Assembly: GCA_026415985.1 (NCBI GenBank)
Contig: JAOAGA010000061.1
Span: 1-9,841 of the forward strand
Direction: 5' to 3'
DNA from: Pseudomonadota bacterium
GTDB taxonomy: Bacteria > CALINM01
Length of the DNA stretch: 9,841 nucleotides
Below, piece by piece: positions 1,703 through 9,002 of this stretch. Under the pieces are notes generated by a model. That model saw only the letters and a program-made list of their open reading frames with translations. It was not told the origin of the DNA and made no database searches. Positions within the stretch are counted from its first letter, which is position 1. Every line of letters begins with the position of its first letter. A program made the translations under genes and the position numbers.

Positions 1703-2164
1703 ATGAAGTTATCTATGGACTTTATTTTCAGGACTATTAACTCAAATGTGCAGGAGATAAACAAAGAAACAATTGTTATAATGTCACAACTAACTGATTT
1801 TGCTCATATTTTTGAGGTGATGCTTGCGGTTGATATAAAAACAAGGAAGATTGTCGAAGCAAAGGGGAACTATTATAAGACACCCTATAAAATCTGCCAG
1901 CAAACACAGAAGCTGATACCTAAGCTAAAGGGACTTACTGTTAATAAAGGTATATTAAAGGAGATTCAGAATATTCTTTCCGGTAAGAACGGATGTGTTC
2001 ACCTTTATGAGCTTGTTGAAAATGCCATAAAACTTGCAAGCACAATTCTTATTGGCAAACATATTAATTATTTCTCCGAGGATTTTAAAAAACTTCCTGA
2101 CGATGAAAAGATAAAATTATCTAAACAGTATCTTAAAAATACTTGTTATGCCTATAAAGAATAG
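1703..2164 (+). CDS. DUF2889 family protein
   Basis: A 153-residue soluble protein. It matches from memory the DUF2889 pattern: an N-terminal strand region ending in L-x-D (residues 30-32), a histidine (H35) and the LAVD strand (41-44), a P-x3-C element (P61, C65), the signature GCVHLYEL (97-104) and a C-terminal NTCYAY ending (146-151). H35, C65, C98 and H100 are candidate functional or metal-binding residues (inference). No function is established for the family to my knowledge. The ATG at 1703 has an in-frame stop 12 bases upstream, so it cannot be extended. No clear ribosome binding site precedes it; an alternative start is ATG 1715. It leads a plus-strand gene run and is followed after 56 bases by a V4R protein, so a shared small-molecule signalling role is possible. 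Confidence 0.8.
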   Translation: MKLSMDFIFRTINSNVQEINKETIVIMSQLTDFAHIFEVMLAVDIKTRKIVEAKGNYYKTPYKICQQTQKLIPKLKGLTVNKGILKEIQNILSGKNGCVHLYELVENAIKLASTILIGKHINYFSEDFKKLPDDEKIKLSKQYLKNTCYAYKE

Positions 2165-2207
2165 CTTGAGAAGTTTTATGGGGTAAGTTGTGCTTAATTC
2201 TCTTTAC

Positions 2208-2213
2208 AGGAGA
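2208..2213 (+). promoter_or_regulatory. Ribosome binding site fixing the V4R protein start at ATG 2221
   Basis: AGGAGA lies 7 bases before ATG 2221. The longer reading frame from TTG 2188 would place this site inside the coding region and would add 11 residues with no family support, so ATG 2221 is preferred. Part of the site pairs with TCTCT at 2199-2203 in a short 5-base hairpin, which may be incidental. Confidence 0.75.
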
Positions 2214-2220
2214 GATAAAA

Positions 2221-2673
2221 ATGATTGATAAATATAACTTTGAAGCTTTTACATCATCTGTCAGGCCAACTCTGAAGTCTTTTCTGCCGTTGGAAACATA
2301 CAGGCTTTTGAGGGTCTCGGGGATGAAAGAGTTATTCGGAGAAAGCACAGGGCCGGTTCTTTACAGATTAGGAAAGATACTTACATCTCAATTTACAATA
2401 AATACCGAAAGTGATCTATTAAATCTTATCGAAAAGCTTGGGATAGGGATACCTAAGGTTTTTAAAAAGACCGATGACATTGTGGTTATTCATCTTTTTG
2501 AATGTATGACCTGTGCGGGACTTCCTATTACCGGAGAGCTTATCTGTGATTTAGAATGCGGGTTCATTGCGGGTGGATATGAGAAGATAACAAATACAAA
2601 AGCTAAGGGTACTCAAACAAAGAGCTGGACAATGGGTGATGGCTTTTGTGAGTTTGTCATTGAGTTGTTTTAA
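2221..2673 (+). CDS. Stand-alone V4R (4-vinyl reductase/XylR_N-type) domain protein
   Basis: A 150-residue cytosolic protein that is essentially one V4R domain, the small-molecule-binding fold found in bacteriochlorophyll BchJ and in the sensor half of XylR/DmpR activators. The features seen are LFECMTCAGLP (92-102), ICDLECGFIAGG (108-119) and WTMGDGFCEF (136-145), in family order. Cysteines are C95, C98, C109, C113 and C143. Aligned by eye to the zinc site of the phenol sensor MopR, C109 and C143 are retained, but the E and C of the E-x-x-C element are replaced by Q132 and S135. Metal binding is therefore altered or uses C95/C98 instead (inference). The kinase gene starts 1 base after its stop, so translation is probably coupled. 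No DNA-binding or output domain is present, so it would have to act through a partner. The ligand is unknown. Confidence 0.85.
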   Translation: MIDKYNFEAFTSSVRPTLKSFLPLETYRLLRVSGMKELFGESTGPVLYRLGKILTSQFTINTESDLLNLIEKLGIGIPKVFKKTDDIVVIHLFECMTCAGLPITGELICDLECGFIAGGYEKITNTKAKGTQTKSWTMGDGFCEFVIELF

Positions 2674-2674
2674 T

Positions 2675-3547
2675 ATGGATGAAAAAAAGGAACTACTTGA
2701 GATTAAAGACCTTTACGAGCACTTACTTACCGTAGCTAACGCTAAGGAAAAAATACTATTGTCTTACCTGAAAGAAGAAAAGGAGTTATACGAGGAGCTA
2801 AGAAAAAAAATTTTGGAGATAAGACAGAAGGACAGGGCAATAGAAGAGACAAGGACTATTATGTCTCAAAATGAAAGATTATTTACCCTTGGAATAATGG
2901 CAGCATCGCTTGCCCACGAGATTAAAAACCCTCTCATAGTAATATTTGGTATGATGGAAAGAATGGAACCGTTAATCACTGATAGCAAGGCTCAGGGGTA
3001 TTTTCAGATAATAAAGACGGAACTTAACAGAATTCAGGGTATTATGGAAAGGCTCAGGGAGTATTATAAACCCAAGGAGACAGAGAAACAACTTAATGAC
3101 CTTAACTTGCTTATTAAAGAGACCGTTAACCTTACCGAACATTACTTATCAAGATTTAAAAATGTATCAATCAGTTATGAGCTTTCTGATGGAATCAGGC
3201 CATTCTATTTTAACAGAGGTCAGATTCAGCAAGTCCTTGTTAATCTTATTATAAACTCAGCACAGGCAATGCCGGAAAGGGGCGGGAAGATTTATGTAAG
3301 AACCTTTTTAATGGACGAAGAGGCAATCATAGAGATTGAAGATACGGGTAAAGGAATAAAAGAAGAAAATTTAGATAAAATCTTTTCACCATTCTTTACC
3401 ACGAAACCACCGGGGGAGGGAACGGGTATAGGCTTGTCTATCTCAAAGGAGATCGTTGAAAGACATAGCGGTAAGATAACCGTTGAAAGTAAAGAAGGTG
3501 TGGGGACAAAGTTTACTATCCATCTGCCCTATATTCACCATAATTAA
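2675..3547 (+). CDS. Soluble sensor histidine kinase (HisKA/HATPase, NtrB-like core)
   Basis: A 290-residue cytosolic kinase. Residues 1-72 are charged and helical, likely a coiled coil. The HisKA H-box is SLAHEIKNP with phosphoacceptor H81. The HATPase domain has an N-box (QVLVNLIINSAQAMP, 186-200; N190 and N194), a G1 box DTGKG (223-227), an F-box FSPFFTTK (237-244) and a G2 box GEGTGIGL (247-254), then SGKITVES and GVGTKF. All catalytic boxes are intact. There is no transmembrane segment, PAS, GAF or receiver domain, so the kinase lacks its own recognisable sensor. The ATG at 2675 overlaps nothing but follows the V4R stop by 1 base without a Shine-Dalgarno sequence, which suggests translational re-initiation. 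GTG 2636/ATG 2639 would add 13-14 residues overlapping the V4R gene, but they look like a frame shadow. No response regulator is in the window. Confidence 0.93.
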   Translation: MDEKKELLEIKDLYEHLLTVANAKEKILLSYLKEEKELYEELRKKILEIRQKDRAIEETRTIMSQNERLFTLGIMAASLAHEIKNPLIVIFGMMERMEPLITDSKAQGYFQIIKTELNRIQGIMERLREYYKPKETEKQLNDLNLLIKETVNLTEHYLSRFKNVSISYELSDGIRPFYFNRGQIQQVLVNLIINSAQAMPERGGKIYVRTFLMDEEAIIEIEDTGKGIKEENLDKIFSPFFTTKPPGEGTGIGLSISKEIVERHSGKITVESKEGVGTKFTIHLPYIHHN

Positions 3548-4338: not shown

Positions 4339-6234
4339 ATGAAAAGGGTTATCTTAGGAACAGCGGGTCATATAGATCACGGAAAGACTACCTTTATAAA
4401 GGCCATAACAGGCATAGATTGTGACAGATTAAAGGAGGAAAAGGAAAGAGGGATAACCATAGAGCTTGGCTATGCCCATCTTACCCTTCCTACCGGTATT
4501 AAGATTGGTATTGTAGATGTGCCGGGACATGAAAAATTTGTCAGCAAGATGGTTGCCGGTGCATCTGGTATTGATATAGTTGCCTTTATCATCTCTGCAG
4601 AAGAAGGTATTAAACCACAGACAAGGGAGCATTTATATATCTGTGAGCTTTTAGGGGTAAAAAAAGGCATCGTTGTGGTTACTAAAAAGGATCTCGTAGA
4701 TGATGATTTTTTGAGTTTACAGCTGGAAGATATAAAAAATTTTATAGAGGGAACTTTTCTTGAAAACTCAAAAATAATACCGGTATCTTCAATTACCGGT
4801 GATGGTTTGGATGATTTTTTGAAAGAGCTCGAAAGACTATCTTCAGAGATAACAGAAAAGCCTTCAGACAAGCCTTTCAGATTACCCATCGATGATATTG
4901 TTACAATAAAAGGTTTTGGAACGGTAGTAAGAGGAACAATTATATCAGGTACTGTTTCTGTCAAAGATGAGGTTGTTCTTCTTCCCACAGGTTATAAATC
5001 AAGAATCAGAAGTATTCAAAGTCATAACCAGAATATAACCACAGGATATGCAGGTGAAAGGGTTGCTCTTAACTTACCGGAGATTGGGAAGGAAGAGATA
5101 GAAAGGGGGATGCTGGTTGCTAAAGAAGGTTATTTTGAAGTAACTGATAAGCTATTGGTTGAGTTTTTTTATCTCCCCTATAATCAGAAACCGCTTAAGT
5201 CAAGATTTGTAAGTCAGTTCCACATATATACGAATAGAGTTGAGGGTGAGTTTTTTCTGATTAACAGGGAGAAGCTCAATCCCGGTGAGAGATCCTTCGC
5301 TGTTATAAGGCTTAAAAAGCCGGTTTATGCCTCCTATGGGGATCCGTTTATTGTAAGAGGTTTTGGTGTTTATACCACTATGGGGGGTGGAAAGATAATT
5401 AACCCCGCATTAGCGACCATTAATAGAAATATTTCAGAGGAATATCTGAAAAAATTGGCTACCGCCGGTACCAATGAGCTTATTGAGCTTTTCCTGAGGG
5501 AAAAGAAAAAAGAAGGTATTACAATAAGGAAATTAAGCGGTATTATTAATATGGCAGAAAAGGATATAGAAACTTGTGTCGCAGGCTTATTAAGCAGTGA
5601 GATTGTTTTTAAGGACAGCAGGGAAAGATTGTATCATTCGGCAGGTATTGATGATATAAAAAGGCAGATTATTGATAATATTGAGGATTTTCACAAAAAA
5701 AATCCACTGAAAATTGGTATGAACAAAGGTGAGCTATTTGAAAAGATTTCTGTCAATGAAGGTTTGTTTGAGACCGCATTATCAATACTTATTAAAGATA
5801 AAAAGTTAGAGATTGACGGGAACTTCATTAAAACCAGAGGGATAAATAAAAGTGATTCAGCCATAGACCCACTTTTTGTAAAAATAGAGAGCTATTACAG
5901 GAACTCGGGTTTACAGCCCGATGACAATATTCCTGAACTCACAAAGAAGCTTGGGGTTACCGAGAGGGTGTTAAAAGATATTCTTGTAACTTTGATTAAA
6001 AAGGGGACTTTAATCAGGATTAAGGATAACTATTATATACACGAAAAGGTTTTTGAAGATTTAAAACAGAAGATATTAAATCATTTTGGTAAAAAGGATC
6101 TTTTGACCCCACAGGATATGAAGGAAATATTTAATCTGTCGAGAAAATATACAATACCAATACTGGAGTATTTAGATAGCATTAAGTTTACCATAAGGTT
6201 ACAGGAAGGCAGAAAACTTAGAAATAAGGTTTAA
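4339..6234 (+). CDS. selB: Selenocysteine-specific elongation factor SelB
   Basis: A 631-residue translation GTPase that brings Sec-tRNA(Sec) to UGA codons marked by a SECIS hairpin. The GTPase motifs are G1 GHIDHGKT (10-17), switch I ending RGITIELGY (38-45), G3 DVPGH (60-64) and G4 TKKD (115-118). EF-Tu-like barrel domains follow to about residue 350, ending in GDPFIVRGFG...GGG. The rest (about 370-631) is the winged-helix array that binds SECIS RNA; the full length is normal for bacterial SelB. GGAG at 4330-4333, 5 bases before the ATG, supports the start. The IELGY signature and the C-terminal extension exclude EF-Tu. Its presence means that the organism makes selenoproteins, yet selA, selC and selD are not in the window. 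polX begins 3 bases after its stop. Confidence 0.97.
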   Translation: MKRVILGTAGHIDHGKTTFIKAITGIDCDRLKEEKERGITIELGYAHLTLPTGIKIGIVDVPGHEKFVSKMVAGASGIDIVAFIISAEEGIKPQTREHLYICELLGVKKGIVVVTKKDLVDDDFLSLQLEDIKNFIEGTFLENSKIIPVSSITGDGLDDFLKELERLSSEITEKPSDKPFRLPIDDIVTIKGFGTVVRGTIISGTVSVKDEVVLLPTGYKSRIRSIQSHNQNITTGYAGERVALNLPEIGKEEIERGMLVAKEGYFEVTDKLLVEFFYLPYNQKPLKSRFVSQFHIYTNRVEGEFFLINREKLNPGERSFAVIRLKKPVYASYGDPFIVRGFGVYTTMGGGKIINPALATINRNISEEYLKKLATAGTNELIELFLREKKKEGITIRKLSGIINMAEKDIETCVAGLLSSEIVFKDSRERLYHSAGIDDIKRQIIDNIEDFHKKNPLKIGMNKGELFEKISVNEGLFETALSILIKDKKLEIDGNFIKTRGINKSDSAIDPLFVKIESYYRNSGLQPDDNIPELTKKLGVTERVLKDILVTLIKKGTLIRIKDNYYIHEKVFEDLKQKILNHFGKKDLLTPQDMKEIFNLSRKYTIPILEYLDSIKFTIRLQEGRKLRNKV

Positions 6235-6237
6235 TTA

Positions 6238-7983
6238 ATGAAAAACTATGAGTTGGCAAAGATTTTTGATGAGATGGGAGACATTCTGGATTTTCTCGGA
6301 GAAAATCCCTTCAGGGTCAGAACCTATAAAAGAGCCAGTCAGATAATTTATGGCTTATCCGATGACATAGAGATATTGTTTAAATCAGGGAAATTGGCAG
6401 AGATAAAAGGGATTGGTGAGAGTATTCTTTCTAAGGTTGAAGAGTTTTTAAAGACCGGCAAGATACATAATTACGAAGAACTTAAGGCAAAGGTGCCTCA
6501 AGGCATACTGGAACTGCTTAACATCCCCGGCATAGGTCCTAAAGGACTTAAGGCACTTTATGATAATCTCCATATTACGAACTTTGATGAGCTCATAAAG
6601 GCATGCGAGGATAAATTAGTTCAGAAACTACCGGGGTTTGGGCCAAAGAAAGAAGAGAATATACTAAAAGGTTTACTAAGAACTAAAGAGGCTGTTTTTA
6701 GATTCCCCATAGGTCTTGTATATGAAGATGTTTTAAACCTTCTTGAGAGAGTCAGAGAGATTAAGGGAGTAAAGAGGGCAGAAGTTGCGGGGAGTTTCAG
6801 AAGAATGAAAGAAACCATAGGCGATGCTGACATAGAAGTTTCCGGAGAGGATGGAGCAGGAATAATTAAGAATTTTACTCAACTTGACGGTATTAAAGAA
6901 ATAATATCTGAGGGCGATACGAAAGGCTCAGTGATTTTGCATAATGGTTTGCAGGTAGACATAAGGGTTGTTGAGAGTGGATCCTTTGGTGCCTGCCTTC
7001 AGTATTTTACAGGTTCAAAGGAACATAATGTAAAGTTAAGGGGGATAGCAAAAGAGAAAGGTTTTAAAATAAATGAGTATGGTATCTTTAAAGGGGACAA
7101 GTTTATAGCGGGTGAGAATGAGGAAGATATATACAAAACCCTCGGGCTTATCTGGATTCCTCCGGAGTTGAGGGAAGATAAGGGCGAGATTGAGCTTGCC
7201 CAGGCGGGAGAGTTAGAGGATATCCTTAAAGAGTTAATTGACTATGATGATATAAAAGGCGATGTTCATTGCCATTCCAGTTATAGTGATGGCGGAGAAA
7301 CTATAATTGCCATGGCAATTTCTGCAAAAAGATTAGGGTATGAATATATAGTGATTACAGACCATTCTCAGAGCCTCAAAATTGCTAAAGGACTTGAGAT
7401 TGAAAGGCTTTATAAACAGTGGGAAGAGATAGATAAGATAAATAAAAGTGGGGAGCTTGGTAATTTTAAAATTTTCAAAGGCACAGAAGTGGATATAAAA
7501 AGTGACGGTGCCCTTGACTATCCCGATGATGTATTAAAAAACATTGATTTTGTTATTGCGTCAATCCACTCCGGTTTCAGGGAAAGCGAACAAGTTATTA
7601 CAAAAAGGATAATCAGGGCTATGGAAAACCCCTACGTAACCGCAATAGGTCATCCGACAGGTAGAATTTTAAATACCAGAGATCCTTACAATGTTAATCT
7701 CATAGAGATTTTTAAAAAGGCCAAAGAGACAAATACATTTCTTGAAATTAATGCATATTTTGATAGACTTGATTTGAACGATGTTAACGTAAGAATTGCA
7801 AAGGAGTATGGAGTTAAATTTGTTATCGGGACAGATTCGCATAACACCAGTCAGTTAAAAAATATCAGATTTGGTATCGGTCAGGCAAGAAGGGCAATGC
7901 TTATCAAAGGTGATGTGGTTAATACCCACCCGTTGGCAGAGTTTGAGAGAGAGATAAAGAATAAAAGGGGGGCAATATGTTGA
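6238..7983 (+). CDS. polX: Family X DNA polymerase with C-terminal PHP domain (PolX)
   Basis: A 581-residue bacterial PolX, a gap-filling polymerase for base-excision repair with a PHP-type 3'-5' exonuclease/phosphatase half. Residues 1-70 form the helical 8-kDa-like domain with IKGIGE (56-61). Helix-hairpin-helix elements follow at IPGIGPKG (96-103) and LPGFGPKK (131-138). The polymerase palm shows GSFRR (185-189), the metal-binding pair D196 and D198 (IGDADIEV), and D241 (QVDIRV). The PHP domain starts at GDVHCHSSYSDG (341-352), and all nine expected ligands are seen: H344, H346, D351, H376, E417, H444, H472, D533 and H535. Both halves therefore look active. The gene follows selB by 3 bases and overlaps aroF by 7. 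It ends TGT TGA TAG, a tandem stop. Confidence 0.95.
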   Translation: MKNYELAKIFDEMGDILDFLGENPFRVRTYKRASQIIYGLSDDIEILFKSGKLAEIKGIGESILSKVEEFLKTGKIHNYEELKAKVPQGILELLNIPGIGPKGLKALYDNLHITNFDELIKACEDKLVQKLPGFGPKKEENILKGLLRTKEAVFRFPIGLVYEDVLNLLERVREIKGVKRAEVAGSFRRMKETIGDADIEVSGEDGAGIIKNFTQLDGIKEIISEGDTKGSVILHNGLQVDIRVVESGSFGACLQYFTGSKEHNVKLRGIAKEKGFKINEYGIFKGDKFIAGENEEDIYKTLGLIWIPPELREDKGEIELAQAGELEDILKELIDYDDIKGDVHCHSSYSDGGETIIAMAISAKRLGYEYIVITDHSQSLKIAKGLEIERLYKQWEEIDKINKSGELGNFKIFKGTEVDIKSDGALDYPDDVLKNIDFVIASIHSGFRESEQVITKRIIRAMENPYVTAIGHPTGRILNTRDPYNVNLIEIFKKAKETNTFLEINAYFDRLDLNDVNVRIAKEYGVKFVIGTDSHNTSQLKNIRFGIGQARRAMLIKGDVVNTHPLAEFEREIKNKRGAIC

Positions 7984-9002
7984 TAGTTATGCATCATTCT
8001 GCAACAGACAGAGATATTGAGGCGGTTAAAAAGACTATTGAGAAGATGGGTTACAAGCCCGTTGCCATACCCGGTGCAGAGAGAACTGCCATTGGTGTGA
8101 TCGGTAATCAGGGCTGGGTAGATGATGCCCCCTTCAGAGGTCTTAAGGGTATTCTTGAGATAATTCACGTAACAAAACCATACAAGTTAGTAAGTAGAGA
8201 CTTTCATCCCCACGATACGGTGATAAAGATATCGAATGATCTTAAAATAGGTGGTAAAAACCCATTTTTGATAATCGCAGGCCCCTGTGCTGTTGAAAGT
8301 AGCGAACAGATATATAAAACAGCAAAGTTTCTTAAAGATTTGGGCGTTAAGGTTTTAAGGGCGGGTGCCTATAAGCCAAGGACAAGCCCCCACAGTTTTC
8401 AGGGATTAAGAGAGAAGGGGCTTGAGATATTGCAAGATGTAAAGAGAGATCTTGGAATCTATACGATAACGGAGGTTATGAGTCCGGAACATCTTGGTTT
8501 GGTGGCAGAAAAGGTCGATATTATTCAGGTCGGCGCAAGAAATATGCAAAACTTTGATTTACTGAAAGAAGTGGGGAAGATAAAAAAGCCGGTTGTCTTA
8601 AAGAGAGGTTTGTCTGCCACAGTAGAAGAGTGGCTCGCCTCGGCGGAATATATACTTTTAGAAGGTAATCCGAATGTTATTCTTTGTGAGAGAGGTATAA
8701 GAACCTTTGAGACCGCAACGAGAAATACTTCTGACCTTTCTGTTATACCTTTAATCAAAGGTAATTCTCATCTGCCGGTAATATATGATCCAAGCCATGC
8801 TACAGGAAAGAGTAAACTTGTTCCTCCGATGGCCCTTGCTTCAATAATTGCAGGTGCTCAGGGGGTTATGGTAGAGGTTCATCCTGAGCCGGAGAAAGCA
8901 CTGTCTGACGGACCTCAGTCACTAAATTTTAAAGAGTTTGAAAGGCTTTATCTTAAGATACAAAAGCTTATATCTTTTGTTGAGGACGAGCTAAAACCAT
9001 AA
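7977..9002 (+). CDS. aroF: 3-deoxy-7-phosphoheptulonate synthase (DAHP synthase, type I-beta)
   Basis: A 341-residue enzyme joining phosphoenolpyruvate and erythrose 4-phosphate, the entry step of the shikimate pathway. Residues 1-70 form the ferredoxin-like regulatory domain seen in Thermotoga-type enzymes, which confers feedback control by aromatic amino acids in that family. The barrel follows: AGPCAVES (101-108), RAGAYKPRTSPHSFQG (128-143), VGARNMQNF (185-193), LKRG (208-211) and DPSHATGK (271-278). The metal ligands C104, H274, E300 and D311 are all present, each two positions above the Thermotoga numbering. The ATG overlaps the end of polX by 7 bases, with a GGGGGG-rich ribosome binding site in polX, so it is translated from the same mRNA. 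No terminator hairpin follows the TAA. Confidence 0.97.
   Translation: MLIVMHHSATDRDIEAVKKTIEKMGYKPVAIPGAERTAIGVIGNQGWVDDAPFRGLKGILEIIHVTKPYKLVSRDFHPHDTVIKISNDLKIGGKNPFLIIAGPCAVESSEQIYKTAKFLKDLGVKVLRAGAYKPRTSPHSFQGLREKGLEILQDVKRDLGIYTITEVMSPEHLGLVAEKVDIIQVGARNMQNFDLLKEVGKIKKPVVLKRGLSATVEEWLASAEYILLEGNPNVILCERGIRTFETATRNTSDLSVIPLIKGNSHLPVIYDPSHATGKSKLVPPMALASIIAGAQGVMVEVHPEPEKALSDGPQSLNFKEFERLYLKIQKLISFVEDELKP

Follow-up and report, generated by a model that had tools for sequence, protein, structure and literature searches.

A DUF2889, V4R and histidine kinase gene cassette that probably encodes a split intracellular sensor

V4R is known mostly as an input domain fused to its output, and MopR and PoxR detect phenols through their V4R pocket. 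In the methanogen redox regulator MsvR, also a V4R protein, three cysteines (C206, C232, and C240) are conserved, of which at least C206 acts in the redox switch; one MsvR carries the motif CX2CX3H, while in other MsvR a proline takes the place of the histidine (PMC3729527). Stand-alone H-NOX proteins, in turn, control kinases whose genes share their operon (PMC6759604). Here we describe a stretch of 9,841 nucleotides (the window) from a Pseudomonadota bacterium (GTDB lineage Bacteria; CALINM01; assembly GCA_026415985.1), which is one whole contig (C119; JAOAGA010000061.1) of an approximately 1.57-Mb draft genome. Reading of the open reading frames (ORFs) and their frames revealed three consecutive genes on the + strand, encoding a DUF2889 protein, a stand-alone V4R protein, and a soluble histidine kinase. 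We propose that this cassette encodes a V4R-kinase sensor split into separate chains, which functions in the manner of the H-NOX/kinase pairs and is probably based on thiol redox or metal chemistry. The probability that we give to this reading is about 0.6, a joint figure that also covers the three genes being one transcription unit. The features of the cassette are:

1703-2164, + strand: DUF2889 (PF11136) protein, 153 aa; a member of the family by Pfam (57.6 bits against a cut-off of 25); structural model with pLDDT 71.8
2221-2673, + strand: stand-alone V4R protein, 150 aa; Pfam V4R and DUF2507; best start ATG at 2221, with an AGGAG ribosome-binding site; stop TAA at 2671-2673
2671-2677, + strand: junction of V4R stop and kinase start, TAA-T-ATG, read from the sequence; no ribosome-binding site before the kinase ATG
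2675-3547, + strand: soluble histidine kinase, 290 aa; ATG at 2675, stop at 3545-3547; from Pfam, alignment, hydropathy, and heptad pattern

ORFs, frames and Pfam matches all agree with the row of genes described in an initial annotation of this DNA, in which a single base separates the stop of V4R from the ATG of the kinase. The same annotation had taken the kinase to be soluble and devoid of a sensor domain, and this stands: Pfam recognised no domain N-terminal to HisKA and the protein has no membrane-like stretch (maximum 19-residue hydropathy 1.26). HisKA (38.4 bits, residues 74-133) and HATPase_c (97 bits, residues 183-286) were both over the cut-off, the H, N, D, and G boxes are present (SLAHEIKNPL, NLIINSAQAM, DTGKGI, and GTGIGL, respectively) with their core residues conserved in the orthologues, and the closest NCBIfam models are AtoS/ZraS-type kinases. 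The N-terminal segment (about residues 1-72) is helical and conserved among three orthologues, according to the alignment and the heptad pattern.

The home phylum was sampled with three genomes belonging to two genera. V4R was present in all three and so was the V4R-kinase pair, while DUF2889 stands ahead of the pair wherever the contig reaches, namely in two of the three genomes (2/2 testable). In isolate SKW176 (L037) the trio has opposite-strand genes on both sides and is arranged as follows:

5533-5991: DUF2889 protein
5995-6447: V4R protein
6449-7336: histidine kinase

The contig of the third genome (L038) begins within V4R, continues with the kinase and the same right-hand neighbours as in L037, and is uninformative on DUF2889. 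Identity of the L037/L038 orthologues to the window proteins was 65-73% for V4R, 57-58% for the kinase, and 64% for DUF2889. The right-hand neighbours in L037 are etf and methylmalonyl-CoA mutase genes, whereas in the window the cassette is followed on the same strand by SurE (38 bases after the kinase) and SelB, and is preceded by a divergent radical SAM gene. Gene order and strand are retained in the second genus despite these unrelated flanks, so that the unit is kept in two independent contexts. Since opposite-strand genes bound the trio and its flanks are wholly different in the second genus, we regard it as a unit. The cassette is real and conserved wherever this could be checked, and the adjacency of V4R and kinase in related genomes, on which the initial annotation had made its proposal depend, is borne out in all three, with a changed context in the second genus.

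The gap between V4R and kinase was 1 base in the window, 1 in L037, and 6 in L038. No Shine-Dalgarno sequence precedes the kinase start in any of the three genomes, and such a sequence stands ahead of V4R in the two genomes where its start is visible, those of the window and L037. Gap sizes and the missing kinase Shine-Dalgarno sequence fit termination-reinitiation coupling and lend it support, so translation of the kinase may be coupled to that of V4R. A promoter for the kinase alone had been named as an argument against a split sensor. In this regard, no promoter-like match was found on the + strand upstream of the kinase start; the lone + strand match (position 2871) falls inside the kinase gene, and matches in total were no more numerous than in shuffles.

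Stand-alone V4R genes were then surveyed in 386 genomes spread over families, which were searched with the home V4R profile and with DUF2889; the neighbourhoods were scanned for kinases and their ORFs read. The home (A1-type) V4R profile matched 17 of the 386 genomes and DUF2889 matched 24. Six further genomes shared a recurrent arrangement, in which a V4R protein that stands alone (about 150-200 residues) has the gene of a separate, soluble output protein as its immediate neighbour:

G287 (L090 1979-3719, - strand): V4R overlapping a HAMP-HisKA-HATPase kinase by 14 bases
G148 and G285: V4R, then HAMP-HD-GYP, with about 60-70 bases between them
G121: V4R overlapping a HAMP-SpoIIE gene (ATGA)
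G403: V4R overlapping a HAMP protein (ATGA), the HAMP score being below the Pfam cut-off
G054: kinase just upstream of V4R

The pair in G403 was the only extra V4R-HAMP pair given by a V4R search in three other phyla (those of G287, G148, and G121). The statement in the initial annotation that V4R usually works fused to a transcription activator (XylR, DmpR) or an enzyme subunit has to be corrected, as stand-alone V4R proteins were common in the searched genomes. A V4R-GGDEF fusion was found by Pfam in G228, and a V4R frame of similar length occurs in G088. No output protein was found beside the stand-alone V4R genes of L087, L088, L091, L094, and L096, a search of plasmids for V4R returned four weak matches with no useful context, and our literature search found no published account of stand-alone V4R-kinase pairs.

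These arrangements bear on the possibility that the operon is one of convenience, whose genes are co-expressed but whose V4R acts on some other partner (e.g., a transcription factor), leaving the kinase to sense by its own N-terminal segment. The 72 N-terminal residues of the kinase are conserved and could sense unaided, and its contact with V4R is a prediction. Nevertheless, V4R and kinase keep strictly the same order across changed contexts, the junctions nearly overlap, and in other lineages stand-alone V4R is repeatedly paired with outputs of the kinase, HD-GYP, or SpoIIE type. These observations speak against this explanation, which we consider unlikely.

In addition, several V4R loci showed traits of their own. 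Stand-alone V4R with soluble HAMP outputs (HD-GYP, SpoIIE phosphatase) occurs in L092 (5573-7137), L093 (2543-4096), and L095 (5594-7212). At L144 (4221-5386, - strand) V4R is paired with a HAMP protein carrying a CxxC ribbon, and directly after this pair, in G403, lies a gene that, read by eye, resembles cysteine desulfurase (L144 3073-4224, - strand). Frames of about 410 aa contain V4R in L084 (5414-6652, - strand) and L085 (4993-6225, - strand), the former being fused to a GGDEF diguanylate cyclase (Pfam) within a lysine-biosynthesis gene run. In L089 (126-1221), reading by eye placed a small roadblock-like protein 17 bases after V4R; a PAS kinase and a response regulator lie downstream of both.

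With respect to its family, the V4R protein of the window exceeded the cut-off of PF02830 (44.9 bits vs. 31), in agreement with fold matches to MJ1460, YslB, and MopR, and scored higher on DUF2507/YslB (49.5 bits vs. a cut-off of 35), which shares the V4R fold. Its AlphaFold model (pLDDT 71) also matched Bet3 and H-NOX. The best NCBIfam match was MsvR (E 6e-9; 35.9 bits vs. a cut-off of 220), although the N-terminal helix-turn-helix of MsvR is missing and the 150 residues comprise V4R/DUF2507 only. Five cysteines (C95, C98, C109, C113, and C143) are invariant in the three orthologues. The first two make the motif CX2CX3P, and C113 has no counterpart in the other aligned V4R sequences, L096 having a cysteine one position earlier. 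By spacing, C206, C232, and C240 of MaMsvR correspond to C109, S135, and C143. The three orthologues share no conserved histidine, and thus the proximal heme ligand of H-NOX (HNOB) has no equivalent and a heme site of that type is unlikely.

The zinc ligands of MopR, which we take to be C155, E178, C181, and C189, were placed through the alignment of the window V4R to V4R relatives and of those relatives to MopR. They fall on C109, Q132, S135, and C143, so that C109 and C143 are kept and two of the four ligands of MopR/XylR-type phenol sensors are lost in all three orthologues. This weakens the alternative of a split sensor that, like MopR, PoxR, and DmpR, takes up an aromatic compound or another small hydrophobic molecule in its V4R pocket, with DUF2889 as a helper whose function is unrelated. 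The V4R score above the Pfam cut-off, the appearance of MopR among the fold matches and the phenol sensing of MopR and PoxR are in its favor; besides the replaced ligands, the extra cysteines C95 and C113 and the lack of genes for aromatic degradation around the cassette in the window and in L037/L038 count against it, and we regard it as doubtful. Given the two lost ligands, the MsvR-like cysteine pattern, and the lack of a conserved histidine, a chemistry of thiol redox, a metal, or a cluster would be favoured over phenol binding for this V4R, and a hydrocarbon chemosensor becomes less likely.

The model of the DUF2889 protein, obtained from a two-sequence alignment, has a predicted four-stranded sheet followed by helices. 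Its top three Foldseek matches were IscU (best E 0.044, probability 0.91), and the top rows of VIA-align were nearly all ISCU/IscU/SufU (Z 8.5, 2.9 Å, 95 residues), just above the level of unrelated models. R10, D32, C65, G77, and C98 were invariant in 25 family members, with H35, H100, and C148 kept in 80-92%, and in an alignment of 17 sequences D32, H35, C65, C98, and C148 were invariant and H100 nearly so. The aligned ranges (DUF2889 15-118, ISCU2 53-158) put D32 and C98 near D71 and C138, and hhalign set C65 on the second IscU cysteine in a match that is not significant (probability 0.25%). As hmmscan of 17 DUF2889 members gave no PF01592 (IscU/NifU_N) match either, sequence homology to IscU/NifU_N was discarded; nor was any relationship between DUF2889 and V4R found. 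A shared IscU fold is plausible from the model, while membership in the IscU family is without sequence support. A distant link of DUF2889 to a SCOP superfamily, which is left unnamed, has been reported in the literature. It must be noted that the window protein (1703-2164) and its relatives in L098-L118 combine invariant D, C, and C with the predicted IscU-like fold, and may be metal- or cluster-binding proteins.

DUF2889 is likely a third member of the system in the home phylum, as had been suggested from its position. Outside it the suggestion failed: DUF2889 was never found beside V4R in the genomes examined, and conservation of the full trio was not found more widely among the 386 genomes, where, apart from the home phylum, only G287 has both genes, on different contigs. 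A more specific proposal, in which an IscU-like DUF2889 builds a metal or Fe-S centre or hands it to the cysteine-rich V4R and the state of the cluster sets the activity of the soluble kinase, seems to us quite unlikely; if true, it would give DUF2889 its first functional role.

The split-sensor reading is supported by the conserved order in a changed context, the close-coupled junction, and the V4R-output pairs of other lineages. The initial proposal is thus supported in part, with DUF2889 as a third member only inside the home phylum. The trio is probably a three-part intracellular sensor that most likely responds to redox state, to a metal, or to a small ligand. V4R would sense this signal and bind the kinase, most likely through the conserved N-terminal helical segment, altering its autophosphorylation. 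The signal itself would most likely be a chemical change at the V4R cysteine cluster, either oxidation of thiols or a metal or Fe-S centre being gained or lost. DUF2889 may be an IscU-like metal- or cluster-binding protein that loads or modulates this site. Phosphate would then pass to a response regulator encoded elsewhere in the genome, where 42 receiver-domain matches, many of them on proteins of NtrC size, and 28 HATPase matches were found. No response regulator lies on the window contig, and the nearest receiver in G002 is about 10 kb from the trio; the kinase would be an orphan, and an NtrC-type regulator as its partner is no more than a fair guess.

Several points weigh against this reading. 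The V4R-kinase contact is a prediction from the gene arrangement. The argument for coupling is weakened because several other window genes, SurE among them, also have no clear Shine-Dalgarno sequence. Cysteine conservation in V4R rests on three sequences, DUF2889 adjacency is restricted to one small phylum with two testable genomes, and the resemblance to IscU comes from a medium-confidence model, with the Foldseek and profile-comparison values given above.

As for the rest of the window, SelB, PolX-PHP, and DAHP synthase genes lie downstream of the cassette (4339-8999), the last two overlapping by 7 bases, and a partial biotin synthase-like ORF, with a CxxxCxxC motif read by eye, is cut by the contig end (9125-9841).

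Among known systems, the cassette resembles the pairs of H-NOX and associated kinase (HqsK in Vibrio parahaemolyticus and similar) in the coupling of a stand-alone sensor gene with one for a kinase, conserved across contexts, and the V4R model belongs to the same H-NOX/V4R/Bet3 fold group. It differs from them in its cysteine-rich V4R without a heme site and in its third gene, DUF2889. Its V4R, which has MsvR as closest NCBIfam match, shares with it the spacing of C109/C143, equal to that of C206/C240 in MaMsvR, and the motif CX2CX3P of some MsvR, but it has no DNA-binding domain, carries S135 at the equivalent of C232, and has a separate kinase as output. The V4R fold and the equivalents of C155 and C189 are common to MopR, PoxR, and DmpR, from which the cassette V4R departs by lacking the ligands E178 and C181 and by not being fused to an AAA+ activator. 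YslB (DUF2507) of Bacillus, also a stand-alone protein, is the best fold match (3njc), although its aligned stretch has no CX2C cysteines. In the DUF2889 model, D32, C65, and C98 are predicted to lie near the IscU ligands D39, C63, and C106; unlike IscU/SufU, it has no counterpart of the first cysteine (C37) and possesses an extra strand and a C-terminal region with C148. These well-placed invariant residues in a predicted IscU-like fold provide a concrete hypothesis on what DUF2889, a family of no known function, may do. In this cassette, as in several other lineages, V4R stands free and is coupled to outputs of the kinase, HD-GYP, or SpoIIE type, which would make it a trans-acting sensor family parallel to H-NOX, with the adjacent output protein as a testable partner.
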